Assembly: GCA_958295785.1 (NCBI GenBank)
Contig: OY282377.1
Span: forward strand, 2,370,394-2,434,393
Direction of reading: 5' to 3'
Length of the DNA: 64,000 nt
Source: an uncultured Latescibacterota bacterium
GTDB taxonomy: Bacteria; Latescibacterota; UBA2968
The notes under the pieces: generated by a model
What the model saw: only the letters and a program-made list of their open reading frames with translations
What the model was told of the DNA's origin: nothing
The model's database searches: none
Made by a program: the position numbers and the translations under genes
Part shown: positions 50,465 through 51,715 of the stretch, piece after piece
How the letters are laid out: the number at the start of each line of letters is the position of its first letter
Position numbering within the stretch: the first letter of the stretch is position 1

Positions 50465-50559
50465 CCATATTTTTGCAGTCCGTTGGGCTTTTAGCTTCCG
50501 GTTTGATGCGAGGGGTTAAAAGCCCTGTTTTATTTTTTGACCTATCCCCACAGAAAATA

Positions 50560-50599
50560 AAAAACAGCCGCCGAGGTTCAAGTCTCGGCGGCTGTTTTT
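50560..50599. terminator. Bidirectional terminator
   Basis: AAAAACAGCCGCCGAG pairs with CTCGGCGGCTGTTTTT across an eight-base loop, a 16-bp perfect stem. It ends the tRNA transcript on the + strand and the ArsC-like gene on the - strand; its last base abuts the gene's stop codon. Confidence 0.92.
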
Positions 50600-50949
50600 C
50601 AATCGAGGATATCGTACACGGCTTCTGCCGGGCGGGCAATCACGGCGCGGTTTCCGCGAATGCACACCGGGCGATTCATCACTTCGGGGTGTTCCAAAAG
50701 CAAATTGACGAGTGCATCGGGCGTATTGTAATCGTCGATATCGCGCCCCAAGTCTTCAAAAGAACTGGGGTGAATCAGGTCTTTGGGTTCGCAGGAAAGA
50801 AGCGAGAGAAAATTTCTCAACCTCTCTTCGTCCAGCGGTGTTTTCAGGTATTCAACCACGTCGAACTCGACGTTTTGGGCGCGCAAAATATCTATCGCGC
50901 CGTTGGATTTGCTTCAGTTGGGGTTGTGGTAGATGGTCACGTTTCCCAT
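50599..50949 (-). CDS. ArsC/Spx-family thioredoxin-fold protein, predicted selenoprotein (in-frame UGA at the catalytic Cys)
   Basis: From ATG 50949, preceded by AAAGGAGGTTGACC, the frame reads GNVTIYHNPN, then TGA (50916-50914), then SKSNGAIDILRAQN, VEYLKTPLDEERL, LIHPSSFEDL, RPVCIRGNRAVIARPAEAVY. This is the complete ArsC family of about 116 residues (HNPRCSKS motif; late RP-x(9-10)-RP). The TGA falls exactly on the catalytic Cys, residue 12. A perfect hairpin starts 16 bases downstream (50878-50901). Everything else in the protein is intact, so selenocysteine insertion is more likely than a nonsense mutation. The family reduces arsenate or other oxidised substrates using glutaredoxin/glutathione; the actual substrate is unknown. 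SelA/B/C/D genes are not in the window. Confidence 0.8.
50878..50901 (-). promoter_or_regulatory. Candidate bacterial SECIS element
   Basis: On the transcript GGCGCG and CGCGCC form a perfect six-pair GC stem around a 12-base A/U-rich loop. It begins 16 nucleotides from the U of the UGA and lies inside the reading frame. Bacterial SECIS elements occupy this position and recruit SelB. A purine-rich loop start (AUAG) is present; the fit to loop consensus needs folding software. Confidence 0.6.
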
Positions 50950-50971
50950 GGTCAACCTCCTTTGCGAGGGG

Positions 50972-51715
50972 TCAAATTCGCCAGCGTTTCCACAAGTCAG
51001 CGGGAATTTCGTCTTGGAACATTTCTTGGTCTTTGTGGGGCAGGCGGGCGAAAAGGCCATAGCGGATGTGGTTGCTGGCGTTGTGCGAGGTTTCGTGCAG
51101 GATGTTGCAGTGCCAAAAAATGACGTCGCCTGCTTTGGCGGGTACTTCAACGGGCTGAATATCTTCAACCATGGCGAGGTATTCGGGATGTTCCTTAAAA
51201 CTGCGGTCGAGGTGACCGGGGTATTTGCGAAGAAATTCCCACGATGTGATGTGGCTGCCCGGCCAGAAGACCGTGCCCCCGCCGCGCGCTTCCACGTCGT
51301 AAATGTAGGTCGCCAAACCGAGCAGAAATGGCATGGTTCGCCGCTTGCCGAGATAACCGTCGATATGCCCTCGGTCGGGCAAGTGCCATTCGCGTTGCGG
51401 TTCGGGCAAAAGCAGGCGCAAGTTGCCATCTTCGCCGCAGAATTGCCCACCGCCCAGTTGATCGACAATGGCTTTGACTTTGGGCTGTTGGGCGAGTTGT
51501 GTTTCCCTTGGCGAAAAGCGAAAGCCTCTGAGGATGGCGATGTCTGCGCGGTGTTGTGGGCGCGACCCCACGGCTTTTTGAGCACCGGACAAATCGCCGA
51601 ATTTGGCGCGAATTTGGGCGCGCCAGTTGTCCAATACGGACGCCTGGATCAGATTGCGGACAACGACATATCCCAACGCCTTAAACGCGGCGATCTGTGC
51701 GGACGTGAGGGCCAT
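50972..51715 (-). CDS. Phytanoyl-CoA dioxygenase (PhyH) family protein
   Basis: A 247-residue Fe(II)/2-oxoglutarate dioxygenase-like protein. The N-terminal LGYVVVRNLI is typical. The facial triad is visible as HIDGYLG (His and Asp) and a distal His in HCNILHETSHN, and the 2-oxoglutarate-binding Arg lies in HIRYGLFAR. Cytoplasmic. It is adjacent to the sulfatase gene in the same orientation, and the selenoprotein gene starts 22 bases after its stop. PhyH paralogues are abundant in sponge-associated and marine lineages. Substrate unknown. Confidence 0.85.
   Translation of the reverse strand: MALTSAQIAAFKALGYVVVRNLIQASVLDNWRAQIRAKFGDLSGAQKAVGSRPQHRADIAILRGFRFSPRETQLAQQPKVKAIVDQLGGGQFCGEDGNLRLLLPEPQREWHLPDRGHIDGYLGKRRTMPFLLGLATYIYDVEARGGGTVFWPGSHITSWEFLRKYPGHLDRSFKEHPEYLAMVEDIQPVEVPAKAGDVIFWHCNILHETSHNASNHIRYGLFARLPHKDQEMFQDEIPADLWKRWRI

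Follow-up and report, generated by a model that had tools for sequence, protein, structure and literature searches.

A predicted selenocysteine-containing ArsC-family gene of an uncultured Latescibacterota bacterium, with a second conserved hairpin downstream of its UGA codon

We analyzed a stretch of 64,000 nucleotides (hereafter the window) from the genome of an uncultured member of the Latescibacterota, and predict with high confidence that it carries a functional selenoprotein gene, in which a UGA at codon 12 would be decoded by SelB and tRNA-Sec with the help of a SECIS-like hairpin, yielding a 116-aa thioredoxin-fold protein of the ArsC type with a selenocysteine (Sec) nucleophile in a UxxS motif (Table 1). 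Sec-containing arsenate reductases with a UxxS motif were reported in 2005 from the Sargasso Sea (14 sequences; Zhang et al., 2005; PMC1088965) and in 2008 from GOS (77 sequences; PMC2398784), and selenoprotein ArsC also appears in a 2022 review and in a 2026 review (PMC13188914). Because such proteins have been described since 2005, the window gene, although genuine, is an expected member of a known family and not a new kind of selenoprotein, and the initial annotation put its novelty too strongly. What is new with respect to the known family is a second, strictly conserved RNA hairpin downstream.

The gene starts at an ATG (50949-50947) with AAAGGAGG located 6 nt upstream, as first noted, and begins ATGGGAAACGTGACCATCTACCACAACCCCAACTGAAGC. 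Its twelfth codon is a TGA (50916-50914) in the context YHNPN-U-SKS, after which the frame remains open up to a TGA stop at 50601-50599, with no other internal stop. Reading the internal TGA as U, the translation is MGNVTIYHNPNUSKSNGAIDILRAQNVEFDVVEYLKTPL...NRPVCIRGNRAVIARPAEAVYDILD (116 aa). The ArsC-like frame with a single TGA at the catalytic Cys was thus correctly identified at the outset, and so was the outcome of conventional gene calling: the table-11 ORF list contains only a 95-aa fragment with a TTG start 3' of the TGA (50599-50886). The terminator originally given as 16 bp is also real, and measures 18 bp, or 16 bp if the stem ends reaching into the stop codon and the T tail are not counted. 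An ORF resembling phytanoyl-CoA dioxygenase ends 22 nt before the ATG; the same neighbour is present at five of nine loci of the same genus, and it is a possible operon partner.

Table 1. Coordinates of the Sec-containing ArsC-family gene and associated features in the window
Feature	Position	Strand	Remarks
Predicted Sec-containing ArsC-family gene	50599..50949	-	116 aa, Sec at residue 12, UxxS motif; AF2 model matches ArsC structures
UGA codon 12, predicted to be read as selenocysteine at the ArsC catalytic Cys12 position	50914..50916	-	
Ribosome-binding site AAAGGAGG before the ATG	50956..50963	-	read directly from the sequence
Hairpin 1, SECIS-like, GGCGCG-N12-CGCGCC	50878..50901	-	apical loop about +21 to +24 nt after UGA
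Hairpin 2, ACGUCG-AGUU-CGACGU	50858..50873	-	codons 27-30 (GTC GAG TTC GAC) frozen
Intrinsic terminator, stop codon inside its span	50558..50601	-	18-bp stem, loop of 8, T tail
Upstream neighbour, phytanoyl-CoA-dioxygenase-like	50972..51715	-	from the ORF list; protein recognised by eye

Among 100 sampled genomes, 22 (including the source genome) possess the gene with exactly one internal stop, which is always a TGA at the same codon. The 21 relatives all come from the same class as the host, share 60-81% protein identity with the window gene, and are intact over the rest of their length. Neither TAA nor TAG replaces the codon-12 TGA in any of these 22 genomes of the class, no further stops or frameshifts occur in the 22 Latescibacterota genes, and 36 of the 116 positions are invariant across 15 of the class relatives. 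Other members of the class harbour a separate Cys paralogue, and two genomes (G012 and G020) hold both forms. TGA forms are also present in Binatota (L055, L056, plus L137-L139, whose genomes were sampled within the phylum of L056) and in genomes belonging to the phylum of an Acidimicrobiales record (L079, L151, L155, L157, L158, L163, L166). Over 149 distinct proteins, residue 12 is encoded by TGA in 34 and by TGC or TGT in 115, with no other codon. In a tree based on a short alignment, whose deep forks are weak, the Latescibacterota Sec proteins form a single clade (support 100/99) and the Sec label requires at least six changes. Viral contigs yielded no relative of the gene, and a viral origin was rejected on this basis.

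These data bear directly on the possibility that the gene is a decaying pseudogene, in which a C-to-A change turned the catalytic TGC into TGA. A single-base change would indeed suffice, and a TTG-start fragment does exist 3' of the TGA. However, in 22 genomes of the class the TGA persists despite synonymous divergence elsewhere, and neither a frameshift nor a further stop has appeared. Two other phyla also have TGA at this position, and the source genome has a full Sec machinery. Because both the frame and the TGA are conserved across genera, we exclude this explanation, to which we assign a practically negligible probability.

The source genome, a single contig of 5,660,449 bases that is 99% complete, contains all four components whose presence the initial annotation had proposed to check. 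The tRNA-Sec scores 70.1 bits, above the Rfam cut-off, and has the anticodon TCA (tRNA-Sec(UCA)) according to ARAGORN, while selA (572.7 bits) and selB (385.8 bits) are adjacent (323801-327282). A selD gene, recognised by sequence and motif without a family search, adjoins the tRNA-Sec (L001, G000, about 2160600-2161700) and has a UGA of its own within the motif SCGGUASK; downstream of it lies a UCCAGC-GGU-GCUGGA hairpin whose loop contains GG. All available signs indicate that UGA is decoded as Sec in at least one further gene of the source genome. The genomes of L055, L056 and L079 each have selB above cut-off. With the machinery present, the TGA kept in 21 relatives, and Sec and Cys homologues paired at residue 12, the reading of the UGA as Sec in an ArsC-like thioredoxin-fold protein, first proposed from the window alone, is almost certainly correct.

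Concerning the hairpin just after the UGA, the sequence starting from this codon folds at -21.7 kcal/mol (z = -2.5 versus shuffles), and the stem-loop has a G in its small apical loop, which is AG and not GG in the window gene. The perfect GGCGCG/CGCGCC pairing that had been placed 16 nt downstream is real, but starts 13 nt after the UGA, i.e. at the 16th nucleotide counted from the U, and aligned relatives favour a slightly shifted register, GCGC[A/G]AU..AUUGCGC, in which the apical GG/AG falls at about +21. A hairpin with an apical loop starting +18 to +24 nt after the UGA can form in all 34 TGA genes, and the mean energy of this region is -12.8 kcal/mol in Sec genes versus -7.6 in Cys genes of equal GC. 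The pairing register of hairpin 1 is not fixed and drifts between lineages: the stem-loop is GCGCAAU-GGAYAU-AUUGCGC in sister species, GCGCUC-N12-GAGCGC in Binatota, and GCAAUGC-CGUGC-GCAUUGC in several actinobacterial-group genes. In the GGCGCG-N12-CGCGCC register, 65.6% of cells pair and three pairs are changed on both sides; RNAalifold on the class genes alone gave no double-sided changes. An alternative register was discarded, as its covariation was no better than in shuffles.

A second hairpin, better conserved than the first and absent from the initial annotation, starts about 43-44 nt after the UGA (43 from its first base), with the sequence GTCGAGTTCGAC at about +45 and a core of CGUCG-AGUU-CGACG. 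Bacterial SECIS loops usually lie roughly 16-37 nt after the UGA, and hairpin 2 (about 44-60 nt) is located farther downstream. Codons 27-30 are identical in all 22 Latescibacterota genes, with zero synonymous changes on a gene tree built without this region, where the remaining fully conserved residues predict 13.8 (Poisson P about 1e-6; 0.0013 by column resampling). The constraint ends sharply, since codon 31, which also encodes an invariant Val, shows seven changes. Hairpin 2 recurs in Binatota, in L079 and in L163, and its 12-mer is found in 29 of 34 Sec genes and in none of 115 Cys genes. As the 14-mer occurs only once in the 5.66-Mb genome, we rejected the idea of a general genome element.

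Could hairpin 2 arise simply as a by-product of codon preference and of encoding V-E-F-D-V, without any function at the RNA level? When synonymous codons are reshuffled, most Latescibacterota genes still yield a stem of 6 bp or more (G-U pairs included) in about half of cases. A stem of 6 bp or more is also present in two Cys genes, the 12-mer is missing from five Sec genes of the actinobacterial group, and only three well-supported phylogenetically independent pairs are available for Sec and hairpin 2, too few for a test with any power. The reshuffling shows that stem formation alone is weak evidence, which we do not retain as proof, and the case rests on the frozen codons and on compensation. 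Against a by-product speak the lack of any synonymous change at codons 27-30, the GAG frozen in the loop even though these genes more often encode Glu by GAA, the absence of the 12-mer from all Cys genes, and the outer pairs of L137, in which compensatory changes (C-G to U-A and A-U to G-C) accompany V31T. On balance we regard a mere by-product as rather unlikely. The nucleotide-level constraint on codons 27-30 is well supported, and hairpin 2 is probably part of the recoding signal. We advance more tentatively, as a possibility somewhat short of even, a two-part Sec-ArsC signal common to the three phyla, in which a variable SECIS hairpin and the frozen hairpin 2 about 44-60 nt after the UGA would both contribute to SelB-dependent Sec insertion or to its efficiency. 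We also observed that L134 (G194), a Cys form close to the Sec forms, keeps the outer ACGUC/GACGU stem and not the inner AGUU part; it possibly represents a recent change from Sec to Cys.

The protein matches the Pfam ArsC family (PF03960) with 37 bits against a gathering cut-off of 24, and its AlphaFold2 model (pLDDT 86.7) has ArsC structures as best PDB matches. Together with its UxxS motif (here U-S-K-S), this places it with selenoprotein ArsC 1 (UxxS, COG1393/pfam03960), with which it shares the family, Sec at the catalytic Cys, widespread Cys homologues, and a stem-loop after the UGA. However, ArsC 1 was first known from marine metagenome fragments, while the present member comes from a whole genome, has a His in place of Arg60, and carries the second frozen hairpin, of which we found no description in the text (figures aside) of the Sec-ArsC papers searched, including PMC1088965, PMC2398784 and PMC13188914. 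From the glutaredoxin-dependent ArsC of E. coli (TIGR00014; PDB 1i9d, 1jzw), which has the same fold (TM-score 0.82-0.86 by query length), nucleophile position, His8, and equivalents of Arg94 and Arg107, it differs by Sec for Cys12, by His for Arg60, by the lack of detectable pump genes, and by a score of 93.5 bits for the NCBIfam arsC equivalog (with Cys standing in for Sec), below the cut-off of 106.05.

The naming first proposed, an arsenate reductase or a related oxidoreductase, is only partly borne out. A true arsenate reductase serving in arsenic detoxification, with the substrate triad Arg60/Arg94/Arg107, is an alternative reading. The ArsC fold and family are confirmed, His8 and the equivalents of Arg94 and Arg107 are invariant, and Arg60 is kept in the Sec forms of Binatota and of the actinobacterial group (Actinomycetota), as well as in nearly all Cys forms. 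However, every one of the 22 Latescibacterota Sec proteins has His at residue 60, leaving the triad incomplete. Cys12, Arg60, Arg94 and Arg107 are the four residues cited as needed for arsenic resistance in PMC5155266, where some ArsC-like proteins that miss one of the arginines are reported to make no contribution to it. Moreover, no match to the arsenite efflux pumps Acr3 or ArsB was found in the 99% complete genome, and no ars genes were recognised in the flanks read, where no ars operon adjoins the gene. We therefore consider arsenate reduction improbable, and, based on His60, the sub-cut-off equivalog score, the lack of detectable pump or ars genes, and the published requirement for the arginines, call the predicted product an ArsC-family selenoprotein oxidoreductase, not a proven arsenate reductase. 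Given the Arg60-to-His replacement throughout the clade and the absence of a detectable arsenite pump, the Latescibacterota Sec proteins may act on a substrate other than arsenate.

The mechanism that we favour would start with the decoding of UGA codon 12 by SelB and tRNA-Sec, aided by the SECIS-like hairpin just 3' and probably also by hairpin 2 (about 44-60 nt after the UGA), which would then belong to the recoding signal. In the resulting 116-aa protein, His8 and two conserved arginines, the counterparts of Arg94 and Arg107 in E. coli ArsC, would activate the Sec selenolate of the UxxS motif. The selenolate would attack an oxyanion or an oxidised thiol substrate and be recycled by glutathione/glutaredoxin or a similar thiol.

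The same superfamily (ArsC/Spx) includes ArsC 2 (UxxC; NF041106 in PMC13188914), which has Sec at the same place; it is a separate paralogue with its own motif and its own hairpin, and no frame of this type was detected in the source genome. Two genomes of the same genus (L204 in G006, L209 in G008) have a second ArsC/Spx-like frame with a TGA in FYTWNRUS[ST]CRK (UxxC) and a GUGAAAGC..GCUUUCAC hairpin downstream; these frames resemble the described ArsC-2-type selenoprotein. ArsC/Spx-like frames with a TGA at the catalytic position were also observed in other groups, namely L202 (G888), L203 (G1012), L205 (G962) and L206 (G094), with the motifs USTC, UGTV, UTSC and UNTC, respectively. Finally, one contig of an Acidimicrobiales genome carries two TGA-containing ArsC genes about 6 kb apart, G102:C89:23953-24258 (L208) and G102:C89:30193-30531 (L079/L147).

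A family first known from marine metagenome fragments is thereby placed in a whole-genome setting, that of an uncultured Latescibacterota with selA, selB, selC and selD, and a constraint at the nucleotide level is recognised downstream of the canonical SECIS position. Our results also suggest that at least one clade of Sec-containing ArsC proteins may not act on arsenate.
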